Of a stretch of DNA of 56,756 nt, positions 18,737 through 40,161 are shown piece after piece. The notes beneath the pieces were generated by a model. That model saw only the letters and a list, made by a program, of their open reading frames with translations, did no database searches and was not told the DNA's origin. Source of the DNA: a virus. The position numbers and the translations under genes are program-made. The first letter of the stretch is position 1. Every line of letters begins with the position of its first letter. Location: positions 1 through 56,756 of IMG/VR virus record IMGVR_UViG_3300044730_000684; one strand, 5' to 3'.

Positions 18737-19016
18737 TGATGGCTTCGATGAACTGATCAAACTGGTCAGGCTTAAAGTCCATAAAGTTAGAAACGCCACA
18801 AGCTTCGATGAAATGCCCCGCCGCTGCTGAGGCATCGTTAATGGCGATCTGTTCGTTTGGTGTCTTGTCGATCATATAGCTATCCATGCACCGTATTGAA
18901 CAAAAGCGTGCCGGAGGTCGGCTCACTCCCGGCGGAGCTGAGTACAGAAACCCGCGCTCCTCCCGTCTGCATATCTTGCATAAATTTGACTTCAACAATT
19001 TCTGTGTACTTCCCAT
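18672..19016 (-). CDS. DUF6511-like zinc-finger protein, out-of-phase overlap with helicase
   Basis: 114 residues. The CKICRREERGFLY block and FCSIRCMDSYM form a four-Cys knuckle that I recognise as the DUF6511 pattern of phage and bacterial proteins (CxxCRRExRGF...FCSxxC). A helical C-terminus contains FIEAIITAYVDSLQ. The ATG is inside the helicase gene, and the first 46 codons use another frame of the helicase 3' end. It would be the last gene of the leftward replication operon. The overlap is discussed in the findings. Its 3' end also overlaps the convergent gene at 18736. Confidence 0.75.
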   Translation of the reverse strand: MGSTQKLLKSNLCKICRREERGFLYSAPPGVSRPPARFCSIRCMDSYMIDKTPNEQIAINDASAAAGHFIEACGVSNFMDFKPDQFDQFIEAIITAYVDSLQAQRVEISGVRFP

Positions 19017-20559: not shown

Positions 20560-20774
20560 GCGTCGAACTCTGCTTTTGGCAAGTTTTTAAGAATCTTTAC
20601 GGCAAGCGTTTTAACAAGCTCAAGTTCAGTTTGTGACTGCGAAATGATGAGCGCGTAGGCGTAGACATCTAAAGCCTTCATCACAAGGTATAGATCGTCG
20701 CCGGTAACAAAAAACTCTGCCTCTACGTCCTCTTCGCTAAAGTCTTCGTCATCTATTTCGTCGCGTCTATCCAT
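20556..20774 (-). CDS. small acidic hypothetical protein, 72 aa
   Basis: The strongly acidic N-terminus (DEIDDEDFSEEDVEAEFF) is followed by a helical region with LVMKALDVYAYALII and a Lys-rich end. It overlaps the upstream nuclease gene by 22 bases and the helicase start by 4 bases, so it is co-translated with the replication genes. Possibly a DNA-mimic or helicase partner because of its charge (inference). Confidence 0.65.
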   Translation of the reverse strand: MDRRDEIDDEDFSEEDVEAEFFVTGDDLYLVMKALDVYAYALIISQSQTELELVKTLAVKILKNLPKAEFDA

Positions 20775-21706
20775 ACCGTGCCGTCCTTCATCAGATACTC
20801 GACCCAGTTCGGCCCCGAGTTTATCTGTTCTCCGGGAATGATGTCCGGCACAAAAAGATGGTGATCGCAGCCCTTGAGCTGTGCTTCTGTGTCTAACTCC
20901 TTGTTATGCCATTCGCACTTCCATCCACCTGTCTTGAGCGGACTACTGTGTAAACAAGTGCGACATGACTTTTGTCTTGGAATTTCATCCTCGTGGCATA
21001 GGCTATGGAAAGTGCAGTATTTGCACTCGTGCCACGCAGGGTCTGAAGAAATCTTGCCCGCCGGTCGCGGTGAGAAAATGATGCGTCGTGCTTTCTCAAT
21101 AAACTTCTCGGCATCGCCACTGTTGTATTCAGTGACAACACTCGTAATGTCCCGCACCCCCGGACTCGCTGCCGTCAAGTAATGCTTCTTGGCTTCAAAA
21201 AAGTGCATATAGACCTGAGCCTGTGCGTAATACACATAGTCCCAGTTCTTCAACGCTTCGGCTTCGCCCTTAGTTGCTTTGAGCGATATCAGCTTTTTAT
21301 ACTTCGCCTCGTTGATGACTTTGCATTCCCAAACGTAAAGCGTCTCTGGATCTTGCAATAGCCCAGTAAGCAGTCCGTCGCAGTTGCCGCGAAAATGTCC
21401 GCCAAGTGCCTCAAACGAGTGCTGAACACCGGGTTCCTTTTCCGTGGAAAGGTCAACTGAAGGGATGGCCTTCAGCAGCGCTGCAACTACCTGTTCGCCC
21501 CGGTGTCCATCATTAATCCTGCGCAGCCCTGCGGCTTCAATAAAGCCCCGCTTGACCCAGCGTAAACTAAGCCAGAGCTTGCGATCGCAGACATCCCCAA
21601 TTGAGGATGCGCCTAAATAGTTCCTTGCTCGACTCTCTTGGGACGACTCCATCACAGAGTCCATAGCCCTCAAGGTCGGATCTTCGATCTCCGGTAACTT
21701 GACCAT
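20753..21706 (-). CDS. Cas4-like PD-(D/E)XK exonuclease with Fe-S cysteines
   Basis: 317 residues from the ATG at 21706. It has C40 in GDVCDRKLW, then D110 (NCDGLL), E127 and K129 (WECKV) and Q164-x-Y166 (QAQVY), the ordered RecB/Cas4 nuclease motifs. C228, C231 and C237 in CKYCTFHSLC complete, with C40, the usual four-Cys iron-sulphur site. A second Cys/His cluster follows (CRTCLH, CEWHNK, CDHH). Phage enzymes of this kind produce single-stranded ends for recombination, here beside a Sak4-like ATPase. GGAG five bases before the ATG supports this start. A longer TTG reading would begin inside the hairpin at 21721. Confidence 0.85.
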   Translation of the reverse strand: MVKLPEIEDPTLRAMDSVMESSQESRARNYLGASSIGDVCDRKLWLSLRWVKRGFIEAAGLRRINDGHRGEQVVAALLKAIPSVDLSTEKEPGVQHSFEALGGHFRGNCDGLLTGLLQDPETLYVWECKVINEAKYKKLISLKATKGEAEALKNWDYVYYAQAQVYMHFFEAKKHYLTAASPGVRDITSVVTEYNSGDAEKFIEKARRIIFSPRPAGKISSDPAWHECKYCTFHSLCHEDEIPRQKSCRTCLHSSPLKTGGWKCEWHNKELDTEAQLKGCDHHLFVPDIIPGEQINSGPNWVEYLMKDGTVWIDATK

Positions 21707-21713
21707 GCCCACT

Positions 21714-21780
21714 CCAAAAGAGGGCGCGACATCTAGCAAGTGGGGGATAGCAAATAAATGCTAGCCAAATGCCGCGCCCT
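21714..21780 (-). terminator. strong intercistronic hairpin, possible partial terminator
   Basis: Outer arms 21721-21731 and 21770-21780 pair over 11 positions (10 Watson-Crick pairs, one wobble). Inner arms 21733-21738 and 21759-21764 add six pairs. On the minus-strand RNA the hairpin is followed by CUCUUUU and then the GGAG of the nuclease gene. It lies between the DUF669 gene and the nuclease gene and could attenuate or stabilise the operon message. Confidence 0.55.
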
Positions 21781-21784
21781 TGTT

Positions 21785-22258
21785 TTACTTCTTGTGACGT
21801 TCCCAAGGCTTCGGCGCAGGGGCAGAAGCGGCAGGAGCAGACTCTGCTTTTGGAGCAGCGCCATCGGCCTTCAGGTAAGAAGCACGAGTCTCAAGACTGC
21901 CCTGCTTGTTTTCCTTGTGGGTAATGGCAACTTTCAAAGGCTTAAAGTGAAGCTGATCGGAGTCGGTCGGCAACGTCGCAAAGTTCAGTGCTGCGGAAAT
22001 CGCTGCAAGCTGCTTCTTAGCCACTTTGACGGTGACTTCGTTTTTGTTAAAGAGGTTGAGCCTCTCCCAAAACTTGCGACCAGTGTACTTCGGGCCAAGA
22101 ATTTCAAACTCTAGCCACAAGTATTCACCGTCGCCCGCTTTGGTAGAGCGCATCTCAGATTGCACGATCTGCATCGTGTACTCGCCTACCGGAAGAATCT
22201 CCGGAGCGCCATCGTTCAGACCTTCAAAATCAGCAGGATTTAAATTTAACTTAGCCAT
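21785..22258 (-). CDS. DUF669-family protein (putative ssDNA-binding/recombination)
   Basis: 157 residues starting MAKLNLNPADFEGLNDG. It has PVGEYTMQIVQSEMRSTKAGDGEYLWLEFEI-type strands and FWERLNLFNKNE, the recognisable DUF669 pattern. The end is an Ala/Pro/Lys tail (PAASAPAPKPWERHKK), a common arrangement in phage single-strand-binding-like proteins. It follows the Sak4-like ATPase by one base. GGGGA six bases before the ATG at 22258 supports this start. In phages this family is repeatedly encoded with Sak4-type ATPases (family knowledge), so a role in recombination or replication is likely. Confidence 0.8.
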   Translation of the reverse strand: MAKLNLNPADFEGLNDGAPEILPVGEYTMQIVQSEMRSTKAGDGEYLWLEFEILGPKYTGRKFWERLNLFNKNEVTVKVAKKQLAAISAALNFATLPTDSDQLHFKPLKVAITHKENKQGSLETRASYLKADGAAPKAESAPAASAPAPKPWERHKK

Positions 22259-22259
22259 G

Positions 22260-23024
22260 TTATTCCCCAATCACGTTTGACATCGCCGTGCTGAGTGCAT
22301 CGGCAAACTTGCTATATTCAAGCGGAAGCGAATCAGGCAGAGGCCATCTTGATTTGGCTTGCCAGCCCGGACGTTCCTGCGTGTAAAGAACACGATTACC
22401 ACTACCCACCGCACGAGTGACTTTTTGGTTAAACCCAACATCGCTCTTGACGGTCGAGTACTGTTGATTCGCAAACATCAGAATGTCGCACCACTCAGCA
22501 ATTAGACTCGCGCTGCCGTGATGCAGATCAAGTTGATAGCGATCGTATGGGTCAGCGAGCGGATCATCGAATCGCTTGACCTGCGTATGCGCGAGCAAAA
22601 TGACTTGCATATTTTTATCGGAACGCAAGTGATCAAGTCCATCCAGAATTTGCCGCCAGTAGTCGGTTGCAGCTTTATAGCCACGACCATATCCAATAGC
22701 GTCAATCGTAGCGACGTTGTTATCGCGAGCGACTTTCTTGTGAACCAACTGCTCTGCCCAGTCAGCAGAGTCGATAACGACCGTTGCGTAGTCGTGATCT
22801 TCAGAGGCCAACGAACCAATTGAGTCCATGATGTCCTCAAAGGACTGGCACTGTGGAAATGCCATGACGTTGATCGCGTCAAGTCCTTCTTCGGTTTGGA
22901 TGAACACAGGGTTCGGGGCTTGTGCGGCAAAGGTTGACTTGCCAATACCGTGAGTCCCATAGACCACGATTCGCGGCGGTCGCGCTACGCCAGTCTTTTT
23001 CAGGCTTTTTAGTGAAATAGCCAT
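22260..23024 (-). CDS. Sak4-like RecA-fold ATPase
   Basis: 254 residues from the ATG at 23024. Residues 22-31 hold the P-loop (YGTHGIGKST), and a hydrophobic strand followed by DSADWAE is the Walker B region. The motifs ILLAHTQVKRF and RVLYTQERPGWQAKSRWPLP match the phage AAA_24/Sak4 family of small RecA-like ATPases that promote strand annealing or exchange. Gene order with DUF669 and a Cas4-like nuclease forms a complete phage recombination set. GGGAG lies six bases before the chosen ATG. Confidence 0.85.
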   Translation of the reverse strand: MAISLKSLKKTGVARPPRIVVYGTHGIGKSTFAAQAPNPVFIQTEEGLDAINVMAFPQCQSFEDIMDSIGSLASEDHDYATVVIDSADWAEQLVHKKVARDNNVATIDAIGYGRGYKAATDYWRQILDGLDHLRSDKNMQVILLAHTQVKRFDDPLADPYDRYQLDLHHGSASLIAEWCDILMFANQQYSTVKSDVGFNQKVTRAVGSGNRVLYTQERPGWQAKSRWPLPDSLPLEYSKFADALSTAMSNVIGE

Positions 23025-23025
23025 T

Positions 23026-23400
23026 TCATGCTCCCATGACAATAGTTACGGTTGTTTTTGCAGGCTTGACGGTCAATGCCGGAGCCAAGATCTTGTAAAG
23101 TGCTGGCTCGTTATTAGCCAGATACTTTACGCCGGGTTCATCAAGCGCCCGCTTTACAGGCCAGAGCGATTCAGGAATCTTGTTCGACACTTGGTCAAAC
23201 AATTCCCAGTCGATCTTACGATTGATTCGCCCAGTGATCGTGACCTTGTAGGTTCCGACAGAGTGCGTCTTGCTTCCTTCTTCCCGCTGCCCCAAAACGG
23301 CAACGAGTTCTTCTTCGAGTGCTATCCGACGTTGTTCAGCTTCGCGTTCATCTTGTTTCGCTTTGAACAGGTCTTCAGCAATTTCAATTTCAGTTCGCAT
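23026..23400 (-). CDS. first gene of leftward replication operon, hypothetical 124 aa
   Basis: Starts MRTEIEIAEDLFKAKQDERE with a charged coiled-coil N-terminus (to residue 45). A compact domain follows with YKVTITGRINRKIDWELFDQV, LWPVKRALDEPGVKYLANNEPALY and AKTTVTIV. The second half resembles small phage proteins found next to ssDNA-annealing genes, often unassigned. AAGGA eight bases upstream and the divergent control region next to it support the ATG at 23400. Its stop lies one base before the ATPase ATG. Confidence 0.75.
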   Translation of the reverse strand: MRTEIEIAEDLFKAKQDEREAEQRRIALEEELVAVLGQREEGSKTHSVGTYKVTITGRINRKIDWELFDQVSNKIPESLWPVKRALDEPGVKYLANNEPALYKILAPALTVKPAKTTVTIVMGA

Positions 23401-23504
23401 TTTCAAGTTCCTTGTTTCACCGGACAACCCGGTAAGACAGAACATACGCCCCCTTGTGACGGAATGCAAGCAGTGGCAATATGTCACCGCCCGAGGAGGT
23501 CGGA
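23401..23504. promoter_or_regulatory. divergent control region between two early operons
   Basis: 104 bases without a gene between the leftward recombination operon and the rightward regulator gene. It contains a perfect inverted repeat ACCGG-5 nt-CCGGT at 23419-23433, and a GTGAC/GTCAC pair at 23456-23460 and 23483-23487 that flanks the -10 of the rightward promoter. These are candidate operators for the adjacent HTH protein. I do not see a strong leftward -35/-10 pair. Confidence 0.6.
23454..23482 (+). promoter_or_regulatory. candidate sigma70-type promoter for the regulator/RusA/primase operon
   Basis: TTGTGA at 23454-23459 and CAATAT at 23477-23482 with a 17-base spacer, about 25 bases before a strong ribosome binding site. 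The -10 is a weak match, which fits a regulated promoter flanked by an inverted pentamer. Confidence 0.4.
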
Positions 23505-23858
23505 ATGTCTCTTAAAGAGTGGTTGGAACGAAATAACTTGACGCACGCAGAATTCGCTGCTATGTGCGGGTGTACCCGTGCCGCCGTATCCCGGTGGGTG
23601 TCGGGGTCAAGAGCGCCGTCGCCCAAGTGGCTGAAGGTAATTGAGCGCAAAACAAAAGGTCAAGTCGTTGCATCTGGCGATACGTCGTCAGATCGTGAAA
23701 GAGCTTTTCTTCAGATTTATCGAAAAGGCTACACCGTATCGGCTGCTGCAAAGAAGTTACGCATTCATCGCAATACGTTGAGCCGTTACTTTTCTGGGCA
23801 GTCCTACACGCCATCGGACATTGTTTCAAAGATTTATAAATTAGCGGGGTTGGAATGA
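23505..23858 (+). CDS. double helix-turn-helix transcription regulator
   Basis: 117 residues from the ATG at 23505, with AGGAGG directly upstream. The first HTH (about 10-35) is Cro/CI-like: NLTHAEFAAMCGCTRAAVSRWVSGSR type. A second HTH is at about 72-98, with YTVSAAAKKLRIHRNTLSRYF. Its position at a divergent promoter with two inverted repeats is typical of a phage repressor or Cro-like switch protein. It is a candidate reader of the repeated dyads found in the leftward promoters at 36991, 37521 and 39710, though nothing in the sequence proves this link. There is no cleavable LexA-type C-terminus, so induction by RecA is unlikely. Confidence 0.85.
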   Translation: MSLKEWLERNNLTHAEFAAMCGCTRAAVSRWVSGSRAPSPKWLKVIERKTKGQVVASGDTSSDRERAFLQIYRKGYTVSAAAKKLRIHRNTLSRYFSGQSYTPSDIVSKIYKLAGLE

Positions 23859-26904: not shown

Positions 26905-27097
26905 TTCTCAATAACTCCAACTCTGCCTTTAAAGTAATAATTTCCTGCTCCAACACCGCTGCCTCATTCCACATTCCGTGTGAACGAATTTCAGCCAGAG
27001 CAAACTGAACCTTCTTGTCCTGCGACTGACCGTAACCCCATGGCGCAGCCTTTAGCTCATTTTTCCACGACCCCGGAGGGCTTTGATTGTCGATCAT
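26891..27097 (-). CDS. small coiled-coil protein, 68 aa
   Basis: Begins MIDNQSPPGSWKNELKAAPWG and ends in a leucine-rich helix (EQEIITLKAELELLRNERR). GGGAG nine bases before the ATG. It overlaps the end of the TPR-glycosyltransferase by 41 bases and the next small gene by 14. Function unknown. Confidence 0.68.
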   Translation of the reverse strand: MIDNQSPPGSWKNELKAAPWGYGQSQDKKVQFALAEIRSHGMWNEAAVLEQEIITLKAELELLRNERR

Positions 27098-28466
27098 TGA
27101 TCATTACTCCCACTTCTTGCGTGACCTTTTCAACCACGCTATCCCACGGAGCGATCATGTTTTCCCTTGGAAAAATTCTTACGCTAGGGTACCAAGCACT
27201 ACGATCGCCCCTTACGTTGCCCCAGTACCAAAGCTTGTTTGCATCCATCAACAACACCGGAACACCTAGCGCACCGGCCAGATGAACCGTTGAACTACTA
27301 ATGGCTACGATCACATCACACAACTTGCAAAGCGCAGCCAAACCTTCAAAGTCATTACTTAGATTTACCGAAGAGGTCTGGATGTTTACTCCATTCTTCT
27401 GATTAAAATAATCAACTGCCTTCTTGTCGCTGCCGTATTGCAGGTTGATTAGATTCACATCTAACTGCATGACAGATAACAACCGCTCAAGATCAATACT
27501 CTTGTGTGGTCCGATCTTCGGGGCTGCGCTCACCCAAGATAAACCCACCGTCAGCTTGTTCGGATCAAGGTCAAGTTCCTTGCGATACTTCTCCACCAGC
27601 TCCGGGTCAGCCTTCAAATACTTCCGGGCAGCGTAGTACTCAATGTCATCCAAGCTCTTGATAAACGATCTGCCAATGCTTGCAAACGGAATCTGCGAGG
27701 TATGCAAATCAGATTTAACTTGATCAATGCTCGACATGAAGTTCACATCCGGCATCGAGCGACTGAATAGCGAGATCAGTCTCGGGTCAACCATCGCCGT
27801 CACATAATCTGCTCGCTTGCGAATCGACGGAATCAACGATCCGTAAATGATCATGTCACCGATGCCCTGCTCGCCCCACACAAGCACGGACTTGTGCTCG
27901 CTATCGAGCGACCATTGCGGCTTTTGTGTCACTAGGCGGCGGCTCTTGAATCTGCTGCTGCTCCATCGCTTCTCGTACAGAGGCCAGCCCGTCTCGAAGT
28001 CGTTTAATTGCAGAGCAAGCAATCCCAAAATCCAATTTGAATTCGCATCGTCTGGTGAAAGTTCGTTGGCCTTCAAGAAATCTTGCTTCGCCAGATCCCA
28101 CCGTCGCATCTCCCAATTCGCAGCCCCTCGCTGCACATAAGCCAGCGTGTAGTCGGGCTTCATCTGCGTGACTTTAGTAAAGTCTTCGATGGCCGCGTCG
28201 TACTTCTGCTGCTCTGATTTCACAACACCGCGATTAACGATGTCTTCAAACGTCAGCGCGCCACGACGCTCAGCGGCATCATAATACTGCTCCGCTTCTG
28301 CAAATTTTCGCTCAATCTGAAGCAACCGCGCCTTGGCACGATACGCAACAATGTCTTTTGGATTAAGCGAGATCGCATAGTTGCAAAGGTCCATGGCTTC
28401 AGCGTACTTACCCGCTTGAAACTTGGCTTCGATCTGCTGAATAGCACGTTGATGTTTGGTAATCAT
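27057..28466 (-). CDS. TPR-domain glycosyltransferase
   Basis: 469 residues from the ATG at 28466 (ATGA overlap with the upstream stop). Residues 1-165 are about four tetratricopeptide repeats (AGKYAEAMDLCNYAISLNPKD; YDAAIEDFTKVTQMKPDYTLA type). The second half has VLVWGEQGIGDMIIY and a C-terminal Rossmann motif (CDVIVAISSSTVHLAGALGVPVLLM), the GT9/GT41-like sugar-nucleotide site. Similar TPR-transferases modify surface glycans or proteins. Here it is the last of three transferases in a row, with two methyltransferases upstream. The acceptor is unknown. Confidence 0.84.
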   Translation of the reverse strand: MITKHQRAIQQIEAKFQAGKYAEAMDLCNYAISLNPKDIVAYRAKARLLQIERKFAEAEQYYDAAERRGALTFEDIVNRGVVKSEQQKYDAAIEDFTKVTQMKPDYTLAYVQRGAANWEMRRWDLAKQDFLKANELSPDDANSNWILGLLALQLNDFETGWPLYEKRWSSSRFKSRRLVTQKPQWSLDSEHKSVLVWGEQGIGDMIIYGSLIPSIRKRADYVTAMVDPRLISLFSRSMPDVNFMSSIDQVKSDLHTSQIPFASIGRSFIKSLDDIEYYAARKYLKADPELVEKYRKELDLDPNKLTVGLSWVSAAPKIGPHKSIDLERLLSVMQLDVNLINLQYGSDKKAVDYFNQKNGVNIQTSSVNLSNDFEGLAALCKLCDVIVAISSSTVHLAGALGVPVLLMDANKLWYWGNVRGDRSAWYPSVRIFPRENMIAPWDSVVEKVTQEVGVMINDRQSKPSGVVEK

Positions 28467-29131
28467 ATTGTTGATGCCACCGCCATCCATTCACGACCGT
28501 AATCCACATCGCACCAGTCCTTAAACCAAGGACCTCCGCGTGTGAAATGCACTGCGATGGGATCTGGCTCGTCCTTTCGGGTGTACCACCCTTCCAGATA
28601 GTTGTATGCGATCGGAAGATCCCCGATCAGCGAGTCGTCGAGCCATTCAAACCTATGAAGATACATCCCTGTGGCAATGTTTACCACCTCTGGCGTCAAC
28701 TTCTTAACTGCTTCATGCTCACAGTTGATGAACATAAAACTCGACCAGTTCTTGCGAGGGTATTGATGCTGCGCCTTGTTATCCATCTTGACCGTTTCGG
28801 TCGGCCTGTAGTCGTGCTTTACAAGCATGCACGCTTTTGTCCGGTCGGCGTAGCCAAGCAGTCCCGCGATGTCCCGCCGGAAAAGAAAATCGCAGTCGCA
28901 AAACACGGCCCAGCCGGTATACCCCGCGAGGTATGGAGTCAGAAACCGCGTGAAGCTGAACTCCGTAGACGAGAGCGGGTCGATGCCACGCCAATAAATA
29001 CCCTGCTCGCGCAGATCTCTTTGCTTTATCGGAGCAATGTCGAGCGCAATAGATGAGTGCAACTCCATGGACCTCTTTGCCACTTGATAGGCAATGTCCT
29101 CACGGCTGTCGTAACCAATAAAAACTTTCAT
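28463..29131 (-). CDS. GT-A-type glycosyltransferase
   Basis: 222 residues beginning MKVFIGYDSREDIAYQVAKRS, a start seen in GT8-like phage and bacterial enzymes. The nucleotide/metal site is CDCDFLF (DxD) near 80-85, with FMFINCEH and a HFTRGGPWF end. It likely transfers a sugar from a nucleotide donor. It is coupled by ATGA to the following TPR-transferase and lies 4 bases after a 56-residue gene. Confidence 0.82.
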   Translation of the reverse strand: MKVFIGYDSREDIAYQVAKRSMELHSSIALDIAPIKQRDLREQGIYWRGIDPLSSTEFSFTRFLTPYLAGYTGWAVFCDCDFLFRRDIAGLLGYADRTKACMLVKHDYRPTETVKMDNKAQHQYPRKNWSSFMFINCEHEAVKKLTPEVVNIATGMYLHRFEWLDDSLIGDLPIAYNYLEGWYTRKDEPDPIAVHFTRGGPWFKDWCDVDYGREWMAVASTI

Positions 29132-29135
29132 AAAA

Positions 29136-29306
29136 TTAAATTGGATTTAAATCTTTAAGAACAACAATGTAAGCAATAGCTTCACCACCAAGTTTCCCCT
29201 CAGAAACCCTCATGATGACGTATTGATCTCCAGCAGATTTCAACAATGCTTTAGCATCTTCAATGCTTTTGAATCCTGCTATTTCCATTTTAAAACCTTC
29301 AAGCAT
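29136..29306 (-). CDS. small hypothetical protein between two glycosyltransferases, 56 aa
   Basis: Reads MLEGFKMEIAGFKSIEDA and ends VVLKDLNPI. The ATG at 29306 overlaps the 3' end of the upstream transferase gene, and the TAA lies 4 bases before the next start. A second in-frame ATG is at residue 7. The fold looks alpha/beta and ACT-like or ubiquitin-sized, but no motif is decisive. Its retention between coupled transferases suggests a partner subunit. Confidence 0.62.
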   Translation of the reverse strand: MLEGFKMEIAGFKSIEDAKALLKSAGDQYVIMRVSEGKLGGEAIAYIVVLKDLNPI

Positions 29307-29970
29307 TTAAGAACGCCTCCTTACGAGCCTGTCCCTTGAAGTGAAGAATGTGCGGCACATGACCCTCCGGTGCCTTGTCCGGCAGACAGGCGTAATCCAG
29401 TTCCTGCATCTCACCCACCAGCTCGGGATAAAGCATGTGCGAGTACACCTTGAGAGCCTCTTGATCTCCGTACCAAGAGCGTAGGTTTTGATCCATAAAC
29501 CCCATCAAAATCGCCATCCCCTTCCACGCATGGTAGTTCTTCGTAATCGTCATGCACCCAAGGTATGGGTACAGCGTACCCAGCGGAATGCCGTGGTACT
29601 TCTTAAAGATCCCGTCCCGTTGCAGTCCGTTGAACGTAGCCTCCCGATCAAACGAGCGACGGCAAAACACAATCTCACGGTCGCCCAATATCGCAGCCGG
29701 ATCGACCGGCAATACAAAAAGCATATCGGTGTCGATATACATAGCGGGCTGCGTCAAACGTGCCTCTGCAAACGCCCGAGTGCGCCAGTACATGATCTGC
29801 GACGGGTCGCCTTTGGAGTACTTGTATTCGTCCACCCCATCGACCTTCGGAGTGACATCATCAGTACACATGATGACTTGAGCGTCGGGCATCACCGCTT
29901 TGAGCGAGGCCACCATCTTCGTCGGGAAGGTCACATCAGCCCCAACGTGAAAGAATACAAATCGGCTCAC
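29299..29970 (-). CDS. GT-A-type glycosyltransferase
   Basis: 223 residues with a GTG start in a GTGA overlap. MSRFVFFHVGADVTFPTKM begins a nucleotide-binding fold. YIDTDMLFVLP is the DxD metal motif. LGTLYPYLGCM, YGDQEALKVYSH and HILHFKGQARK are GT8/GT32-like acceptor and C-terminal motifs. It is a paralogue-like companion of the next transferase but not close in sequence. Probably builds a glycan with it. Confidence 0.8.
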   Translation of the reverse strand: MSRFVFFHVGADVTFPTKMVASLKAVMPDAQVIMCTDDVTPKVDGVDEYKYSKGDPSQIMYWRTRAFAEARLTQPAMYIDTDMLFVLPVDPAAILGDREIVFCRRSFDREATFNGLQRDGIFKKYHGIPLGTLYPYLGCMTITKNYHAWKGMAILMGFMDQNLRSWYGDQEALKVYSHMLYPELVGEMQELDYACLPDKAPEGHVPHILHFKGQARKEAFLNA

Positions 29971-30152
29971 TCTTCGCTCCTAACAACCGCCATGATGTCT
30001 GCAACCTTGTAAGCATCACGCGCCAGTTCCCACACGTTAGGGTGAGAGCCATCTGGCTGAGCTGCTAACATCCCTTGCATCGCCGCCGTTGCAAAGTAGT
30101 CACGCAGTTCCATGCCGTAAGCGGCACGATCTTCTTCTTTCTTAGTCATCAT
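29967..30152 (-). CDS. small hypothetical protein, 61 aa
   Basis: Begins MMTKKEEDRAAYGMELRDYFA; the segment DYFATAAMQGMLA is a recurring phage motif in short proteins of unknown role. Coupled to both neighbours (overlaps of 4 bases). No membrane segment or metal site. Two ATGs in tandem (30152, 30149) could start it. Confidence 0.72.
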   Translation of the reverse strand: MMTKKEEDRAAYGMELRDYFATAAMQGMLAAQPDGSHPNVWELARDAYKVADIMAVVRSEE

Positions 30153-30478
30153 TCCTCCAGAGGGTCTTTGAGCATGACCGTCGTTGCCGTCGCGGGTGCA
30201 ACGGAATACTTATTAAGCACATCGACGCATCTGTTAATCGTCTGCTCGCGGATCAGCACCGCCAGTTTGCAAATGATCTGCGCGTTGTTTTTTTGTGCGA
30301 TCGGACCAGCGGCATCAAACTCACGCGCCGTCTTCTCAACAAACGCCCAGTCAAAGTAGTCCAGCTTTCCCTCTGGACCGATCTTGCACCACGTTTCTTC
30401 ACCTGTCTTGGCCGTAGTCGGATTCTCAAGGTAATCAAACTCTTTTTCTTGCTTTGATTCCTCATTCGTGTCGCTCAT
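30149..30478 (-). CDS. hypothetical protein, 109 aa
   Basis: The acidic N-terminus (SDTNEESKQEKEFDYLENP) is followed by WCKIGPEGKLDYFDWAFVEKTAREFD and a helical end. No domain recognised. ATGA overlaps at both ends place it in the glycan block between a methyltransferase and a transferase, so it is presumably co-translated with them. Confidence 0.7.
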   Translation of the reverse strand: MSDTNEESKQEKEFDYLENPTTAKTGEETWCKIGPEGKLDYFDWAFVEKTAREFDAAGPIAQKNNAQIICKLAVLIREQTINRCVDVLNKYSVAPATATTVMLKDPLEE

Positions 30479-31251
30479 AACTTCACCATTACTCCTTGTC
30501 CGGTGGGCAATTCCAAAATTTTCTCTGGCTTGTCTTCCAAAAACTTCTGATGCGATAAACCCGATTCTCGGTATCTTGAAAAGCCGTAGTCATCAAATAC
30601 TAATATCGCACCCTTCGACATACGCTGATACAACTCCGGCAGCACATGGGCTTCGGCTTCGTGTCCGTTCAAGTCAAGGTGCGCGAAACAAATTTCATCG
30701 GGTAACTTGTGCGGGATCGTCTCAAACACATCTCCCCCACACATCACGGGGCAAAACTTACGCATACGCCTCTCAACTTTCTTTTCAAGTTCCGGCCCGT
30801 GTAAATTCTTTTTGTGATCGCCATCTGGTGCGTCGAAATAGTCAAACAGATACAGATTCTTTCCCAAAATCAAATCATTATTGTATTTACAAAAAACCGC
30901 TGTGCTCTTTGCCTCGTAGCACCCCACATCCACAATATCGCCTTCAATATGCGCGGCCTGTGAGAGTGCCCAGCACAAGTTATGTATGCGCCATGATCTA
31001 GCGTGCAACACAGCATCATCCTTAAACTCACGCATCGCTTCGACAAACTTCGGGTCTTGCAACCAGAACAGACTGCGAAACCAAATAAAGATGTCATCGT
31101 GAATCGTGAACGGAACGCCGCCTCTGTGCATCAGTTCAGCCATCTTTGAGATCGCAGCAAAAAACTCCTTACGATCGTCATCGGTCTTGAACATCTGCGC
31201 GTAATCTTTATTCGCAAACATAAAGACCGGCTGAACATAGGGGTTCGTCAC
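30475..31251 (-). CDS. TylF-like sugar O-methyltransferase
   Basis: 258 residues with a GTG start (GTGA overlap). IEGDIVDVGCYEAKSTAVF is SAM motif I. LYLFDYFDAPDG, FAHLDLNGHEAEAHVLPELYQRM and AILVFDDYGFSRYRESG match macrocin-O-methyltransferase (TylF) motifs, which include a metal-binding D...DD set. Family members methylate sugars on antibiotics and lipopolysaccharide-like glycans. Together with the three glycosyltransferases downstream it suggests a methylated glycan product. Confidence 0.85.
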   Translation of the reverse strand: MTNPYVQPVFMFANKDYAQMFKTDDDRKEFFAAISKMAELMHRGGVPFTIHDDIFIWFRSLFWLQDPKFVEAMREFKDDAVLHARSWRIHNLCWALSQAAHIEGDIVDVGCYEAKSTAVFCKYNNDLILGKNLYLFDYFDAPDGDHKKNLHGPELEKKVERRMRKFCPVMCGGDVFETIPHKLPDEICFAHLDLNGHEAEAHVLPELYQRMSKGAILVFDDYGFSRYRESGLSHQKFLEDKPEKILELPTGQGVMVKL

Positions 31252-31460
31252 AAATTAACCCCGTAATACCGCAGCACCAACTTAAATGCGTCAATGTGAT
31301 GCTTTAACTCAGCGATGTCTTGCTTTGGATCAGTATGAAAGATCGCAAGATTACCGCCCGCCTTACGTCGTTTTAGATCCTCTTGAAGACTCTTGAGCGT
31401 GTCCTTCAGATCCGCTCGAACAAGTGTATTCATGCCCTCAACACAGAGTTCAACTTTCAT
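31248..31460 (-). CDS. small hypothetical protein, 70 aa
   Basis: MKVELCVEGMNTLVRADL, then a helical charged region (LKSLQEDLKRRKAGGN) and KHHIDAFKLVLRYYGVNL. I start at 31460, where ATG overlaps the upstream TGA (ATGA), rather than at a further upstream codon that lies inside the previous gene. Function unknown. Confidence 0.68.
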   Translation of the reverse strand: MKVELCVEGMNTLVRADLKDTLKSLQEDLKRRKAGGNLAIFHTDPKQDIAELKHHIDAFKLVLRYYGVNL

Positions 31461-31624
31461 GTCATCGCCCCTATGGCGTAACCTAAAATGAATGTAATTA
31501 GGCATAGCATAATCTCCGCTACCATCGCGGCAGAGCGTTTCCTGTCCTGCTCCAGTTCCATCTCAAAAATCTGCTCTTTCAACTGGCGTATCTCAGCGCG
31601 TAGCCGGTCTTGCGAATACTCCAT
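31457..31624 (-). CDS. small coiled-coil membrane protein, 55 aa
   Basis: MEYSQDRLRAEIRQLKEQIFEM gives about 30 residues of heptad coil, then one transmembrane helix (VAEIMLCLITFILGYAIGAM). The start ATG overlaps the preceding stop as TGATG. This is a C-tail-anchored coiled coil, an arrangement often seen in early phage proteins that act at the host membrane. Role not known. Confidence 0.7.
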   Translation of the reverse strand: MEYSQDRLRAEIRQLKEQIFEMELEQDRKRSAAMVAEIMLCLITFILGYAIGAMT

Positions 31625-31755
31625 CACCAGTAGTCTCCATACTTGCAGTCGGTCTGCTTGCCACGCGAGCATCGGTAGTTGGGTGGCGGTACGCTTGCCC
31701 ATTCGCGGTATATGTCAGCCTTCCAATTTTGGATCAATCTCTTTAGCCAATTCAT
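31624..31755 (-). CDS. 43-aa basic aromatic protein
   Basis: Reads MNWLKRLIQNWKADIYREWA, continues through VPPPNYRCSRGKQTDCKYG and ends in DYW. The ATG at 31755 lies inside the end of the upstream coiled-coil gene, and the TGA overlaps the next ATG. Its neighbours on both sides are coupled to it in the same way. Two Cys and six Trp/Tyr residues in the second half suggest a compact fold. Short, so moderate confidence. Confidence 0.6.
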   Translation of the reverse strand: MNWLKRLIQNWKADIYREWASVPPPNYRCSRGKQTDCKYGDYW

Positions 31756-31906
31756 TTGGATCAGTCCTCGCCAGTTCTAGTTCGAGTAAGCGTATCTCTC
31801 TCTGCTTTTGTCGTATCTGACTCCACAACTGCTCGACCCTTGTGAGTTGTCTTTCGCGGCGGGTAACCCGCTCGTCTAGCAAGTCGTCGCCCTGTTTCAA
31901 TGCCAT
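31715..31906 (-). CDS. 63-aa coiled-coil protein overlapping the upstream gene out of phase
   Basis: Starts MALKQGDDLLDERVTRRERQ and has a clear heptad coil (VEQLWSQIRQKQREIRLLELEL). GGGAG seven bases before the ATG at 31906 is a good ribosome site. For 146 bases it shares DNA with the 3' half of the zinc-knuckle gene in another frame. Both frames look coding, this one by its coil periodicity and signals. GTG at 31909 is an alternative start. Confidence 0.62.
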   Translation of the reverse strand: MALKQGDDLLDERVTRRERQLTRVEQLWSQIRQKQREIRLLELELARTDPNELAKEIDPKLEG

Positions 31907-32087
31907 CACACAACTCCCTAATCAGCCGTTGTCGGCGCAGCGAACTAATACGCTCCTTGCGGGTTTCGATCCACCGCAGCGTCTCCTCGACGGAGGCTTT
32001 ACGATGAGATCGACCCCGCATGAAGTGACAACGCCCTTTATGCTCTGTGTTACATACAGAACACCGCGTTTCTTTCTTCGGGGGCAT
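31761..32087 (-). CDS. zinc-knuckle protein, 108 aa
   Basis: MPPKKETRCSVCNTEHKGRC gives a CxxC...C/H set with HFMRGRSHR, a likely zinc knuckle. A basic helix follows (ETLRWIETRKERISSLRRQR) and then an Arg/Thr-rich tail that overlaps the next gene in another frame. The ATG at 32087 is preferred. A TTG at 32117 overlaps the upstream stop (TTGA) and would add ten residues. Likely nucleic-acid binding by charge. Confidence 0.6.
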   Translation of the reverse strand: MPPKKETRCSVCNTEHKGRCHFMRGRSHRKASVEETLRWIETRKERISSLRRQRLIRELCDGIETGRRLARRAGYPPRKTTHKGRAVVESDTTKAERDTLTRTRTGED

Positions 32088-32113
32088 CCCCCAAAATTCT
32101 CTAAAGTTTCTAC

Positions 32114-32278
32114 TCAAAGTATTTTGGATAAAAAGTGGTTGAACATCCGCATCGTTGACTCTACTTGCATCGCCATCTGTTGCGTTTGCTCATACGCCGC
32201 TCGTTCCGCAGCCTCCTTTACCTGTGCATACTCTTGATAGGCACGATCCAACTCTTGACACTCTTGCTCGTTATCCAT
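32114..32278 (-). CDS. 54-aa helical protein
   Basis: MDNEQECQELDRAYQEYAQV continues as a Gln/Glu/Met-rich helix and ends FNHFLSKIL. GAGGAGG eight bases before the ATG is one of the best ribosome sites in this operon. It is the first gene after the only real gap (32279-32380) in the long leftward operon, where a copy of the repeated dyad lies. Confidence 0.68.
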   Translation of the reverse strand: MDNEQECQELDRAYQEYAQVKEAAERAAYEQTQQMAMQVESTMRMFNHFLSKIL

Positions 32279-32297
32279 TTGCGTTCCTCCTCAGAAC

Positions 32298-32317
32298 ACT
32301 ATTGGTCAAACGGCTTG
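32298..32317 (-). promoter_or_regulatory. fourth copy of the repeated dyad with a -10-like hexamer
   Basis: Core CAAACGGCTTG at 32307-32317 (CAAGCCGTTTG on the minus strand) is three bases upstream of AATAGT (minus strand, 32298-32303). The placement resembles the three other dyad promoters, but a -35 is not convincing. It lies in the 102-base gap before the 54-aa gene, so it may drive or control the glycan half of the operon. Confidence 0.45.
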
Positions 32318-32380
32318 CACACGATACCCTGCACCGAATATAGGCGCAATCCCTTTGTGCAAACCAACTGATTTACAGGG

Positions 32381-33001
32381 TTACTGTGCTACAAACTGAA
32401 CTGCCGATTGGGGCAGCAGTAGGGCGGTCTTTCGGCTTGGACGGGGGTACACCAGAATATGCCCCGCAAACTGAGTCGAAAGCAGCAGGGAAGCGTTTGC
32501 TACCCCCTTCTCTATGCCCTCAAAGTCATCCAAGACAATCACGGCATCGCGGGATAAATTCGCCATCAAGTCCGTATCCGCACCCGCCAACCGTCCGTCC
32601 AGATAAAACAGGTCTACCTGTACGCCCCGCTCAACCAAGGTCGTGAACATCTGCGTCGAGGTCTGCTTCGGAAACTGCTCAACGGCTCCCCCGTACAGTT
32701 CGGGTAACTTAATATCGTTTGAGGCATCGCAGGTGTAGATCACCCCACCGCTCATGCCGTCTGCCATCGCCCTCGTCGAGCGTCCGATATACGTCCCCAC
32801 TTCGGCTATGACCTTGGGCTTGAAGTGCCGCACAATCCCACGCAACTCCGCACAGTCCTCGTCGCCCAATGAACCCGTCTTGTAGTCGGCTTGGGCAACC
32901 AATTCCTCGTCGTTACGCAAAATGTAGGGAGTAATCTCCTTCGACAGTACCGCCCAGATCACAGGCGAAAACGCCATGCGGTTAATACGAATAGGATTCA
33001 T
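32381..33001 (-). CDS. class I SAM-dependent methyltransferase
   Basis: 206 residues. KVIAEVGTYIGRSTRAMADG is SAM motif I, VIYTCDASNDIKLPE is motif II, and VDLFYLDGRLAGADTDLM and DAVIVLDDFEGIEKG are the following strands. This is a Methyltransf_24-like layout, usually small-molecule or sugar methylation. The start ATG overlaps nothing upstream except a four-base ATGA with the gene at 33393. It stands before the gap at 32279-32380 and could act with the transferases further along. Confidence 0.82.
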   Translation of the reverse strand: MNPIRINRMAFSPVIWAVLSKEITPYILRNDEELVAQADYKTGSLGDEDCAELRGIVRHFKPKVIAEVGTYIGRSTRAMADGMSGGVIYTCDASNDIKLPELYGGAVEQFPKQTSTQMFTTLVERGVQVDLFYLDGRLAGADTDLMANLSRDAVIVLDDFEGIEKGVANASLLLSTQFAGHILVYPRPSRKTALLLPQSAVQFVAQ

Positions 33002-36990: not shown

Positions 36991-37019
36991 CTTTTACACA
37001 AGCCGTTTGTGCTTGTCAA
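36991..37019 (-). promoter_or_regulatory. leftward promoter of the accessory operon with internal dyad
   Basis: On the minus strand TTGACA (37014-37019), 17 bases, then TAAAAG (36991-36996). The spacer holds a perfect CACAA-5 nt-TTGTG inverted repeat at 36997-37011. A repressor bound there would block polymerase directly. It lies just downstream of the terminator at 37028-37055, so the operon has its own start. Confidence 0.75.
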
Positions 37020-37027
37020 CTACCCGT

Positions 37028-37055
37028 AAGAAAAGGCGGGTTGGCAGTCCCCGCC
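37028..37055 (-). terminator. rho-independent terminator of the 131-aa gene
   Basis: Arms 37035-37040 and 37050-37055 (GGCGGG/CCCGCC), nine-base loop, followed on the minus strand by UUUUCUU. It insulates the single gene at 37063 from the operon that begins just beyond it. Confidence 0.85.
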
Positions 37056-37062
37056 TCCATGT

Positions 37063-37458
37063 TTAGGCCGCTTCGGTTTTCTGCGACTCAGCGATGTCAC
37101 TTAGGGCTTTTTCAATCCACTCCTCACAGGTTTCGTGCGAGTCGTTGATGTCGCCCTTTTTCATCGGGGTGATGCTCTTGGGGGTCACGGTAAACAATCC
37201 GATAGGGGTCGGTATCGCATCGTTCTCCCAATAGATTGCACCACCCGCGCCGCAGTAGATCGAACCATTCTTGCCATACATACACATAACGGGAACTTTC
37301 TTTTTATCGCCTTCACCGTAACGGCTATAACCATGTTCGTCGGCAGCGTTTCGGATTGCGGTCAAGGGGTCGGTTGCCTTTGCCCATGAGCCGTAAGAAC
37401 CAAGAGTCACCGCCAAGAACGTATAGCCGTTCGACAAGACATGATCGTGCTTCGTCAT
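37063..37458 (-). CDS. 131-aa protein, single-gene early unit
   Basis: MTKHDHVLSNGYTFLAVTLG, WAKATDPLTAIRNAADEHGY, VMCMYGKNGSIYCGAGG and a helical acidic end (EEWIEKALSDIAESQKTEAA). Contains its own promoter (37521-37549) and terminator (37028-37055), so it is transcribed alone, probably strongly and early. AGGAG precedes the ATG. I do not recognise the family. The isolated, highly controlled setting suggests a host-takeover or regulatory protein. Confidence 0.74.
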   Translation of the reverse strand: MTKHDHVLSNGYTFLAVTLGSYGSWAKATDPLTAIRNAADEHGYSRYGEGDKKKVPVMCMYGKNGSIYCGAGGAIYWENDAIPTPIGLFTVTPKSITPMKKGDINDSHETCEEWIEKALSDIAESQKTEAA

Positions 37459-37520
37459 GCGCTATCTCCTACAGGTAAGTTGTTATAGAACGCGACGACC
37501 GCTTGGATCGCCGTATAATA

Positions 37521-37549
37521 ATTATGACACAAGCCGCTTGAGCAATCAA
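37521..37549 (-). promoter_or_regulatory. leftward promoter with internal dyad
   Basis: TTGATT (minus, 37544-37549), 17 bases, CATAAT (37521-37526), a good sigma70 match. The spacer includes the repeated dyad CACAA-GCCGC-TTGAG at 37528-37542 (one mismatch in the arms). Drives the 131-aa gene. Confidence 0.78.
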
Positions 37550-37648
37550 GTCAAGTTGTGCAAAGTTTTGTTAAGATTTGTTAAGACGAGTGTTGTATTT
37601 GTGCAACAAGTGTTGTTGAGAAACAACGCAGCCAAGGGGGATTAGTTC

Positions 37649-37744
37649 ATGTTTTTAGGAAAGAAATACTCTCCCCAAGATCAATTCGTCGCCGGTAAGT
37701 TATTGTCTAGTAAGGTCGAATTGGCAATTTTGCATCGGTTTTGA
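37649..37744 (+). CDS. 31-aa micro-ORF in the control region
   Basis: MFLGKKYSPQDQFVAGKLLS continues for 11 residues to a Phe-Tga end. An AAGGGGG site nine bases before the ATG is strong for this genome. It follows nested TTGT/ACAA inverted repeats (37580-37632). It could encode a leader peptide or simply be chance. Low confidence. Confidence 0.35.
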   Translation: MFLGKKYSPQDQFVAGKLLSSKVELAILHRF

Positions 37745-37870
37745 ATTTGTTTATTTCTTTCCTAGAGAGATAGAGATAGAGAAACAGAAAAGAGATAAAA
37801 GAAAGGTATAAGAGAAAGAAATAAATATATATATTATTTATATATCTATCTATATTCTCTTTTGTCTATC
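37745..37870. other. origin-like purine- and A/T-rich tract
   Basis: No gene. The + strand is nearly all purine at 37763-37824 (AGAGATAGAGATAGAGAAA type), then an A/T-only stretch at 37821-37845 with an ATAAATA/TATTTAT arm pair, then pyrimidine-rich TATCTATCTATATTCTC. This is the most easily melted sequence in the window and sits between opposing transcription units. A replication origin or unwinding element is the likeliest reading. Confidence 0.55.
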
Positions 37871-37945
37871 AACGACTTACGAGTGAGGCAATTTTGGTGC
37901 AGTCGTAATTAGTTCGTATTATTTCGTAATCGCAGGGTTACAGGA

Positions 37946-37974
37946 TTGCTCGGGCAGAGATCGGGCTATATACT
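37946..37974 (+). promoter_or_regulatory. rightward promoter for the small-terminase gene
   Basis: TTGCTC (37946-37951), 17 bases, TATACT (37969-37974). The -10 matches consensus at five of six positions and the -35 only at three. It is about 42 bases before the GTG at 38016. No copy of the leftward dyad is present here. Confidence 0.5.
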
Positions 37975-38015
37975 TAGACCTACGGCAACGGGCTAAACCA
38001 TGGGAGCGCGTAAAC

Positions 38016-38558
38016 GTGACAGAGAAGCCGCACAAGGCAACGAACGAGCAGGGCAGCGGGGTAGGTACAGGGGTAGTCGAGAAAGCCGCTCAGAGCGTCC
38101 CATTCGGCTCGAATGGTGTTGTAGTGGAGCAGAACAGTAGGTCGGTAATCCATAAAAGACCAGACAATAGGCAGCACCCAGATGCCTCAGTCGCCCAGAC
38201 AGTCGCCCAGATGGTGTTCGCGGGGATGCCTCAAGAGACAATCGCCCGTGTCCTCAAGGTATCGCTCGACACGCTCCACACTCACTACAAGCATGAACTC
38301 GACACGGGACAGGCAAGCATGGTCAACGATATCGCCCAGTCTCTCGCGCAACGTGCTAAAGCCGGTTCCGATACCGCCGCTATATTCCTACTCAAGACCA
38401 GGGGAGCCGGTAAGTTTACGGAACGTAATGGGGTGGAACTAACGGGCAAGGATGGCGGCCCTATTGAAATCGCGCAACGGACTGAAATCCTGCAAACGGT
38501 CAACGGACTACTGAGCAAGGGGATCACGATCGACGGGGAATCGGAGCCGCTCGACTAA
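38016..38558 (+). CDS. putative terminase small subunit / HTH DNA-binding protein
   Basis: 180 residues from a GTG start with GGGAG nine bases upstream. Residues 1-55 are disordered-looking. Then ASVAQTVAQMVFAGMPQETI and ARVLKVSLDTLHTHYKHELD form a helix-turn-helix, followed by VNDIAQSLAQRAKAGSDTAA and IFLLKTRGAGKFTERNG. This HTH-helix-LKTRxGW-like layout is seen in phage small terminases and related DNA-binding proteins. The large subunit lies 2.6 kb further on, separated by a leftward unit. It may instead be a regulator. Confidence 0.65.
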   Translation: MTEKPHKATNEQGSGVGTGVVEKAAQSVPFGSNGVVVEQNSRSVIHKRPDNRQHPDASVAQTVAQMVFAGMPQETIARVLKVSLDTLHTHYKHELDTGQASMVNDIAQSLAQRAKAGSDTAAIFLLKTRGAGKFTERNGVELTGKDGGPIEIAQRTEILQTVNGLLSKGITIDGESEPLD

Positions 38559-38563
38559 CGCGC

Positions 38564-38590
38564 AAAAAAAAGGGGAGCAAACGCCCCCCC
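38564..38590 (-). terminator. rho-independent terminator of the ArdC unit
   Basis: On the minus strand a G-rich arm (38584-38590) pairs with CCCC (38572-38575) and neighbouring GC, followed by eight U (38564-38571). The orientation fits the leftward antirestriction gene ending at 38618. The opposite strand lacks a U tract. Confidence 0.72.
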
Positions 38591-38617
38591 TATAGTGTCT
38601 CGAATTGTGGCGGCTCG

Positions 38618-39517
38618 TTATGCGGCTTCGGCGGCTTCTTCGGCGGCTTCTTGCTTGCCGGTCAATAGTTCGGCGGCTTCACGCGCTAGGCTCGCGGCTT
38701 TGAAAATTGCTTTCTTATCTTGCTTCAATACCGCTAACCAATTGTTAAGGTACTGAGCATGATCTACACGCGGTTCATTCGATATCCCTAGCGACGCGCA
38801 ACAAAAAGCCGCGCCTAATTCCGCGACCAATTCCTCAAAAGCATAGGCATGGGTTCCAAAGCCGTTCAAAAGTTTTCGGTCTAATCGTGACTCATGGCCC
38901 GTCCAATGCACTAACTCATGTGCCAATGTGGAGTAGTAACATTCCGTCGCGGTACTGGTCGCCGTTGCCGTGAATAGTGATTTCTCTGGCAAGTGTATCG
39001 AATCGAGAAGGGGAGCATAATAGGCGCGTTGCTCGAAAGAATGACGGATATTCGCGCCAGTATTTCGCGCCCATGCTTCGACACGCTCTAGCGTTTCAAC
39101 GTCGTTTTTATTGTCATCGGTGACAATGCTTCGGCATTTTTCGGCGAGTGGCCCTTCTACCTGATCGGCATTAAATACGTTGAAATACTTAAGCATGGGA
39201 AAAACACTTTTCTTCCCCGTTTGCTTGTCTTCTTTTTCTAACTTAGTAAAAAAGACAACGATAGAAGACTTTTCCCCTTTCTTTACTGAACAACCGGCGG
39301 CTTGCCATTGTTTAAAAGAAGCAAACGCGCATGACTCAAAAGGCGTGAAATTTAAGAGTAGGCTATTGATGCCACGATAGTTTCGAGCCGTTGTCGCATT
39401 GTATGGGCGTAGCGCGTTTCGTTTCTTGTTGAATGGGTTAGTCCACTTGTTGCCAGATGATTCCATCTGAGAAATCACTTTATCGGTGACGGATTGGTAT
39501 AAATCGAATGAGGCCAT
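38618..39517 (-). CDS. ArdC-type antirestriction protein
   Basis: 299 residues from the ATG at 39517, with GAGGGG upstream. Residues 1-130 match the ArdC N-terminal ssDNA-binding domain (YQSVTDKVISQMESSGNKW, NYRGINSLLLNF, WQAAGCSVKKGEKS). The C-terminal zincin-like part has H200-E201-x-x-H204 (AHELVHWTGH) and E233 (EELVAELGA). ArdC-family proteins protect incoming DNA from host restriction. The tail is a run of EAAEEAAEAA. Its own promoter, operator and terminator, plus the small membrane gene before it, make a compact early defence-evasion unit. Confidence 0.9.
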   Translation of the reverse strand: MASFDLYQSVTDKVISQMESSGNKWTNPFNKKRNALRPYNATTARNYRGINSLLLNFTPFESCAFASFKQWQAAGCSVKKGEKSSIVVFFTKLEKEDKQTGKKSVFPMLKYFNVFNADQVEGPLAEKCRSIVTDDNKNDVETLERVEAWARNTGANIRHSFEQRAYYAPLLDSIHLPEKSLFTATATSTATECYYSTLAHELVHWTGHESRLDRKLLNGFGTHAYAFEELVAELGAAFCCASLGISNEPRVDHAQYLNNWLAVLKQDKKAIFKAASLAREAAELLTGKQEAAEEAAEAA

Positions 39518-39534
39518 GATGCTATTCCCCTCTA

Positions 39535-39675
39535 TTATTTGTTGATCGCGTAAACGCAAAAAATCCAGAATGTTACGAAAAGAAAGCAATTAAGCCGAAA
39601 AAGTAAATCGTCCATTTTTTTGCTCATAAGAAAGTAATTAAGCCGAAAAAGAAAAGTGTTTAATTTCTTGCTCAT
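39535..39675 (-). CDS. 46-aa membrane peptide with internal tandem duplication
   Basis: The first 16 residues (MSKKLNTFLFRLNYFL) are repeated as MSKKMDDLLFRLNCFL, then a hydrophobic helix (FVTFWIFCVYAI) and NK. AGGGGATAG before the ATG at 39675 is an excellent ribosome site, and the predicted promoter start lies about 30 bases upstream. The 48-base DNA repeat (39628-39675 and 39580-39627, 40 of 48 identical) shows recent duplication in frame. The second copy has its own ATG, so a 30-aa product is also possible. It precedes ArdC in one unit. No known family. Confidence 0.68.
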   Translation of the reverse strand: MSKKLNTFLFRLNYFLMSKKMDDLLFRLNCFLFVTFWIFCVYAINK

Positions 39676-39709
39676 GTTTCTATCCCCTAGTGAGTTATCG
39701 GTCGCGGAT

Positions 39710-39739
39710 ATAATGAGCGCAAGCCGGTTGTGCTGTCAA
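39710..39739 (-). promoter_or_regulatory. leftward promoter of the membrane-peptide/ArdC unit with internal dyad
   Basis: TTGACA (minus, 39734-39739) then an 18-base spacer to CATTAT (39710-39715), or 17 bases to TCATTA. The spacer contains the dyad core CAAGCCGGTTG at 39720-39730, with flanks GCGC/TGTGC extending the symmetry. Third promoter of the same design. Confidence 0.75.
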
Positions 39740-40161
39740 CAAAAAAGATATGTTCCTATAACGCTATGCAATTTTGACAAGTATTTCGTTGCGGATTGTG
39801 GCGCGTGTATCGTTGTCAATTGTGGAATGAGTGCGATTCGCGTTTGCAAAATAGTTGCATAAGGTTCCCCTAGTCGATCGAAATGAGACGTATTCGCATT
39901 ATCGGTGGGTGGTACGGCACGAAAAACGACGGCGGGGTTACGGGTCCCATCTGCCTATTCACACTCCGCCCCCGCTTGCACTTTTTGAAAGCACTACCCC
40001 CTTGCGCACAAAAGTGTTAGGGTCCCATCTGAGTATCTGGCACGGTGCGCGTGCAGCGACTAGACCGGCAGCGGGACTAGCACACAGGCTCCACGGTTGT
40101 TGGAGATCGCTGCTTTCCGGCAGGATGATCCTGCATACTCAATAGGCAACGAAGGACCCCA
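39740..40161. other. intergenic region before the late genes, with repeats
   Basis: No convincing gene in 422 bases. A 45-codon frame at 39883-40020 has no ribosome site. Contains a 12-base exact repeat GGGTCCCATCTG at 39942-39953 and 40020-40031, 78 bases apart, and a 15-base perfect palindrome at 40120-40134. Candidate late control, packaging (pac/cos) or recombination site next to the terminase block. I see no strong rightward -35/-10 pair. Confidence 0.5.
40120..40134. repeat. perfect palindrome GCAGGAT-G-ATCCTGC
   Basis: Seven-base arms around a single centre base, 27 bases before the first late gene. There is no U tract on either strand, so it is more likely an operator or recognition site than a terminator. 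Confidence 0.7.

Follow-up and report, generated by a model that had tools for sequence, protein, structure and literature searches.

Three leftward promoters of a freshwater phage, whose only source of knowledge is environmental DNA, hold the same short dyad between their -35 and -10 hexamers, and we found that a further leftward promoter is bracketed by a pair of such dyads. Judging from the sequence, these dyads are very probably the operators of a repressor encoded by the phage itself, whichever protein that may be. The record that we analyzed (56,756 bases, called the window throughout) has ends that overlap by 105 bases, so that it is probably a complete, circularly closed assembly. By its terminase, the nearest named isolates are the Caulobacter phages GB2A/RW at 50% identity, and dozens of environmental contigs are far nearer than these. 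The replication genes of the window include a helicase, a Cas4-type exonuclease, Sak4, RusA, and a primase-polymerase. Matches to PF00589 or PF00239, by which we looked for the integrase (or resolvase) that would mark a temperate immunity system, were absent from the window and seven relatives, which makes a shut-off of early genes likelier than lysogeny.

Dyads at leftward promoters

The core CAAGCCGNTTG occurs in four exact copies in the window, where 0.22 are expected, and none of 100 shuffles had four. Three copies, reading on the + strand (36999-37009, 37530-37540, and 39720-39730), sit within the 17-18 nt spacers of leftward sigma70-like promoters that match the consensus at 9-10 of 12 positions (Table 1), and the fourth reads on the - strand (32307-32317). 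The places and hexamers of the three spacer copies agree with the preliminary description of this DNA, as does its claim that flanking bases extend the symmetry: scored with a 17-nt consensus, only O1-O3 reach 15/17, compared with 0-1 sites in ten Markov shuffles. Its statement that no other copy exists holds for exact copies but not for degenerate cognate sites, which are present at 32344-32360, 23450-23473, and 39991-40007. A promoter scan of the 12.5 kb around the operators returned four promoter-like sites (11.8 in shuffles), two of which are P39.7 and P37.5; P37.0 escaped it owing to the G at the end of its -10. The units behind these promoters, which we regard as regulated, are set apart by terminator-like hairpins.

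Table 1. Features of the proposed regulon in the window.
Feature	Position	Strand	Details
Putative dyad operator O1	39717..39733	-	GCGCAAGCCGGTTGTGC; in spacer of P39.7, promoter of the ArdC unit
Promoter P39.7, leftward	39710..39739	-	TTGACA-18-CATTAT
ArdC-type anti-restriction protein	38618..39517	-	main gene of first regulated unit; phrog_7245 1.4e-79, PF18818, PF08401
Terminator-like hairpin	38570..38591	-	end of ArdC unit; z -2.9
Putative dyad operator O2	37527..37543	-	ACACAAGCCGCTTGAGC; in spacer of P37.5
Promoter P37.5, leftward	37521..37549	-	TTGATT-17-CATAAT
131-aa protein	37063..37458	-	single-gene unit under P37.5; matches no family
Terminator-like hairpin	37030..37055	-	GGCGGG-9-CCCGCC-TTTTC, between 37063 gene and P37.0; folding -15.7 kcal/mol, z -1.8
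Putative dyad operator O3	36996..37012	-	ACACAAGCCGTTTGTGC; in spacer of P37.0
Promoter P37.0	36991..37019	-	promoter of long leftward operon; TTGACA-17-TAAAAG
Weak dyad O4a	32344..32360	-	GCGCAATCCCTTTGTGC; overlaps -35 of P32.3; CAAGGGGGTTG here in relatives
Promoter P32.3, leftward	32321..32349	-	TTGCGC (32349-32344)-17-TATCGT (32326-32321)
Dyad O4b	32304..32320	-	CAAGCCGTTTG core; over predicted transcription start of P32.3; 40 bp from O4a
Near-invariant promoter block of 23505 gene	23450..23488	.	everted half-sites CCCCTTG...CAAG; rightward TTGTGA-17-CAATAT
Candidate regulator, 117 aa	23505..23858	+	two tandem XRE (Cro/YdaS-like) domains

The fourth exact copy lies where it had been reported, ahead of a -10-like hexamer. 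That hexamer, AATAGT, is likely a poorer choice of -10 than TATCGT, and the copy is not a spacer operator, a role that we rejected for it. It belongs instead to a pair of dyads, spaced 40 bp, that flank the likely promoter P32.3; the upstream dyad takes in the -35 of this promoter with its right arm, and the downstream one lies over the predicted start. The same 40-bp distance separates CAAGGGGGTTG from CAAGCCGNTTG in G001, G007, G011, and G012, and G005 has a 42-bp version; a TTG...-17-TA...T pair stands at the place of P32.3 in these five relatives and in G002.

Other observations concern the surroundings of these sites. By family match, two genes of the long leftward operon (27057-33001) are methyltransferase-like and one encodes a TPR protein, and two more appear glycosyltransferase-like by eye. 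Several relatives also have a stretch like AACAAAACTTTGCANAACTTGAC upstream of P37.5 (37541-37600). A C5-centred near-dyad, GCACTACCCCCTTGCGC, occupies 39991-40007 ahead of the rightward packaging genes and is shortly followed by AGGGTCCCAT; orthologous sites are found in G001, G004, G007, G011, and G012, and the element might serve as a cos site, as a late promoter, or as a sixth, weak operator.

Conservation in related phages

A search of related phages, as the preliminary description had proposed, found that the dyad (consensus RCRCAAGCSGCTTGYGY) is conserved in dozens of them. With a position matrix built on the relatives' sites, some of them picked for their promoter context, the dyad was detected in nearly every related record, mostly in intergenic DNA and commonly 40-70 nt before leftward genes. 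At 37 of 72 non-redundant sites (51%), it is centred in the 16-18 nt spacer of a promoter with at least 9/12 matches, a position expected to block RNA polymerase, compared with 5% for shuffled flanks; this enrichment may be somewhat inflated by the training of the matrix, which does not explain its size. As expected of operators, the window has several copies at unlinked promoters (three spacer dyads and the bracketing pair), and similar sets occur in relatives. The operators persist in front of genes that show little conservation, from which it follows that the regulator has its gene elsewhere. A strong dyad-like match in the relatives' helicase gene (ACAAGCCGGTTG, opposite the QSTGLYIQ codons) was rejected, since it is coding sequence and its score in the window is under 9 bits.

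The proposal that one phage protein silences all leftward early units stands in part: phylogenetic footprinting and the positions of the dyads lend good support to one phage regulator, but 'all' is too wide. The leftward replication and recombination genes (18880-23400) have no head-to-head dyad, and dyads occur only from 39.7 kb down to P32.3.

The candidate repressor and its rivals

The protein encoded at 23505, previously suggested as the regulator, is the best candidate for a repressor acting through the dyads, because neither the window nor seven relatives contain any other HTH_3 protein, because its gene is a core gene, and because cognate half-sites lie in its own conserved promoter; we consider that it probably has this role. 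These half-sites are everted and not head-to-head. Two HTH_3 stretches lie in one chain (PF01381, 63 bits with a cut-off of 23), and the AlphaFold model has two four-helix domains (pLDDT 86) of uncertain mutual orientation (pTM 0.52). Domain 1 resembles the YdaS/Cro protein of prophage CP-933P (profile E 0.001 against 8co2; by fold 35% identity over 57 columns, with a weak Foldseek E-value), and domain 2 resembles the ImmR repressor domain. A homolog is encoded by all 11 relatives containing the replication module (41-85% identity in the aligned set). Its recognition helix is conserved and barely varies, so that covariation of protein and operator is no usable test. G004 (L157-L159) has the most altered recognition helix (ERSTVTKW) together with operators reading CCCAAYCSG, a hint of covariation as far as two sites go. 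The 23505 protein and the promoter dyads are both absent from G003 and G010, which have only ArdC or distant virion genes in common with the window and differ from it in most genes, the co-occurrence itself being drawn from related genomes. The 23505 gene lies 8.8-16 kb from the dyads. No divergent CI-type partner was found beside it, where the neighbour is a DUF7173 protein, and a tblastn search against cultured phages gave no match.

Upstream of the 23505 gene, CCCCCTTGTGACGGAATGCAAGGGGTGGCAWGATGTCACC is nearly unchanged in 20 lineages while its flanks vary, in a set that was collected with a partial pattern of the block itself; an alignment of 17 sequences by gene position only yields the same near-invariant block. 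The block contains a rightward promoter (TTGTGA-17-CAWGAT in the lineages, CAATAT in the window) and two CAAGGGG half-sites that point apart as an everted repeat, and the window copy of its core (half-sites 23450-23473) matches at 22 of 24 positions. The head-to-head dyad is absent here, so the geometry is a different one, and the CAAGGGG half-site is also present in the upstream dyad of the P32.3 pair in relatives. These common half-sites tie the 23505 gene to the operators and suggest autoregulation. Alternatively, the block could serve another purpose, for instance the initiation of replication. Positions 23450-23488 also read as a weak divergent leftward promoter (TTGCAT-17-TATGTT), and a second dyad, GGTGRCA-NNN-TGTCACC, lies over the -10 of the 23505 promoter, the only place in the window where it occurs with at most two mismatches.

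Another phage protein is unlikely to be the repressor, whether the small terminase subunit (38016) or a core protein whose DNA-binding fold went unrecognised. Every dyad-bearing relative examined has the 38016 gene, which in the window is located among the operators and encodes an HTH-like stretch with a weak LuxR-like HTH match below the cut-off, but its product matches small terminases (phrog_309), and no other Pfam or PHROG HTH family appears among the 25 families listed for the 62 other window proteins.

We judged it rather improbable that the dyads are bound by a transcription factor of the host (LacI/PurR-like, or a different repressor that recognises palindromes) which the phage exploits or suffers. 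LacI-family operators have CAA...TTG arms and a C/G-rich centre, which the dyads resemble, and the same promoter-embedded dyad occurs once each in five unrelated viral contigs (L303, L198, L329, L292, and L245). However, sites at which a host repressor acts should tend to disappear from a phage, and the 17-mer is not enriched in 563 sampled proteobacterial genomes (8 hits in 289 Alphaproteobacteria, 10 for the reversed control; 5 in 274 Gammaproteobacteria, 12 for the control); the alternative offered in the preliminary description is therefore disfavoured. We obtained 19 scattered hits for the dyad together with a promoter (including the -35) on scanning 257 Gb of genomes, where we estimate that about 11 are expected; most are in long open frames and lack a -10, and only three have a 4/6 -10. 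Among viral contigs, 13 of 15 such hits have a -10 of at least 4/6, and the scrambled palindrome control gave 0 compared with 15. Taken together, these scans make the dyad element look phage-borne. The five unrelated contigs carry the extended dyad in a promoter without a good relative of 23505, their HTH_3 matches being at most weak and below the cut-off; they may reflect chance, convergence, or another regulator, and we set them aside as evidence for 23505. Judged by title and abstract, the papers returned by a literature search for the core sequence have nothing to do with phage or with gene regulation of this kind.

Related promoters could also spread by duplication as cassettes without any regulator, but this is very improbable given that the promoters differ outside the dyad and hexamers, that conservation peaks at the symmetric positions -8 to +8 of the dyad, and that P32.3 has its dyads at other positions. 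A MerR-type activator that realigns the promoter is hardly credible: a dyad between -35 and -10 is a hallmark of MerR-regulated promoters, but these have 19-20 nt spacers, whereas the 16-18 nt spacers here need no realignment, and no MerR family match was seen, so that we rejected it on spacer length.

Proposed shut-off and known systems

In the model that we propose, a single repressor encoded by the phage, most likely the tandem-XRE protein 23505, has all of the dyads as its operators, and the binding, repression, timing, and autoregulation that we infer for it would run as follows. At entry, host sigma70 RNA polymerase would read the ArdC unit, the 37063 gene, and the long operon with its internal promoter, while the 23505 gene would be transcribed from its own weaker promoter and its product would build up. 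Each CAAGC-S-GCTTG dyad would then be bound by a dimer, or by both HTH domains of a single chain, so as to cover the spacer between -35 and -10 at three promoters and both the -35 and the start site at P32.3. RNA polymerase would be blocked and the early leftward arm shut off together, and the half-sites in the 23505 promoter would limit synthesis of the repressor. Because ArdC, which is expected to act at DNA entry, is encoded in one of the units, these are probably early units that are later turned off, and the normal 16-18 nt spacers around the dyads argue for steric repression and not for MerR-type activation. We also entertain, as a tentative extension that we think doubtful, that the tandem-XRE repressor reads the half-site CRCAAGSSG in two geometries, head-to-head for early-arm shut-off and everted for autoregulation at its own divergent promoter. 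If so, two HTH domains per chain would allow either arrangement, giving a one-protein timer in an apparently non-integrating phage.

Among known systems, the immunity repressor of the temperate mycobacteriophages L5/TipsytheTRex binds asymmetric 13-mer sites as a monomer, including stoperators in short spaces within operons (PMC9283540). The likeness lies in one phage repressor with many operator copies spread over the genome, several of them in promoters, and in two DNA-binding domains within one chain. Here, in contrast, the dyads are symmetric and at promoters, the second domain has an XRE fold, and an integrase was not found. C1 of phage P1, another phage repressor with dispersed operators, is also a near comparison. 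The dyads share their CAA...TTG arms and C/G-rich centre with LacI/PurR operators but are of odd length with one central base, and neither a LacI-family protein in the phage nor a host regulon was found. YdaS of CP-933P is a Cro-type prophage repressor that is reported to have operators overlapping promoters (PMC8630535; PDB 8co2, 8c7k); its inverted repeats have the half-site GTTTAGTAA, and it controls the adjacent divergent region beside a CI-like gene (PMC8630535). Domain 1 of 23505 matches it in sequence (E 0.001) and fold, and both are small XRE proteins without a CI-type C-terminal domain, whereas the 23505 gene lies far from the dyads, encodes a second XRE domain, and has no CI partner.

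Few studies have addressed how uncultured environmental phages regulate their genes, and in this instance sequence alone yields a regulon: promoters with their operators, the units that they drive, and one candidate for the repressor. Control of early promoters by one phage repressor on a shared operator, which is the most likely reading, is a sound, not exotic, form of phage gene control. A field concerned mostly with temperate phages would gain an example in which a phage that does not integrate switches its early genes in a coordinated way through a two-domain repressor.
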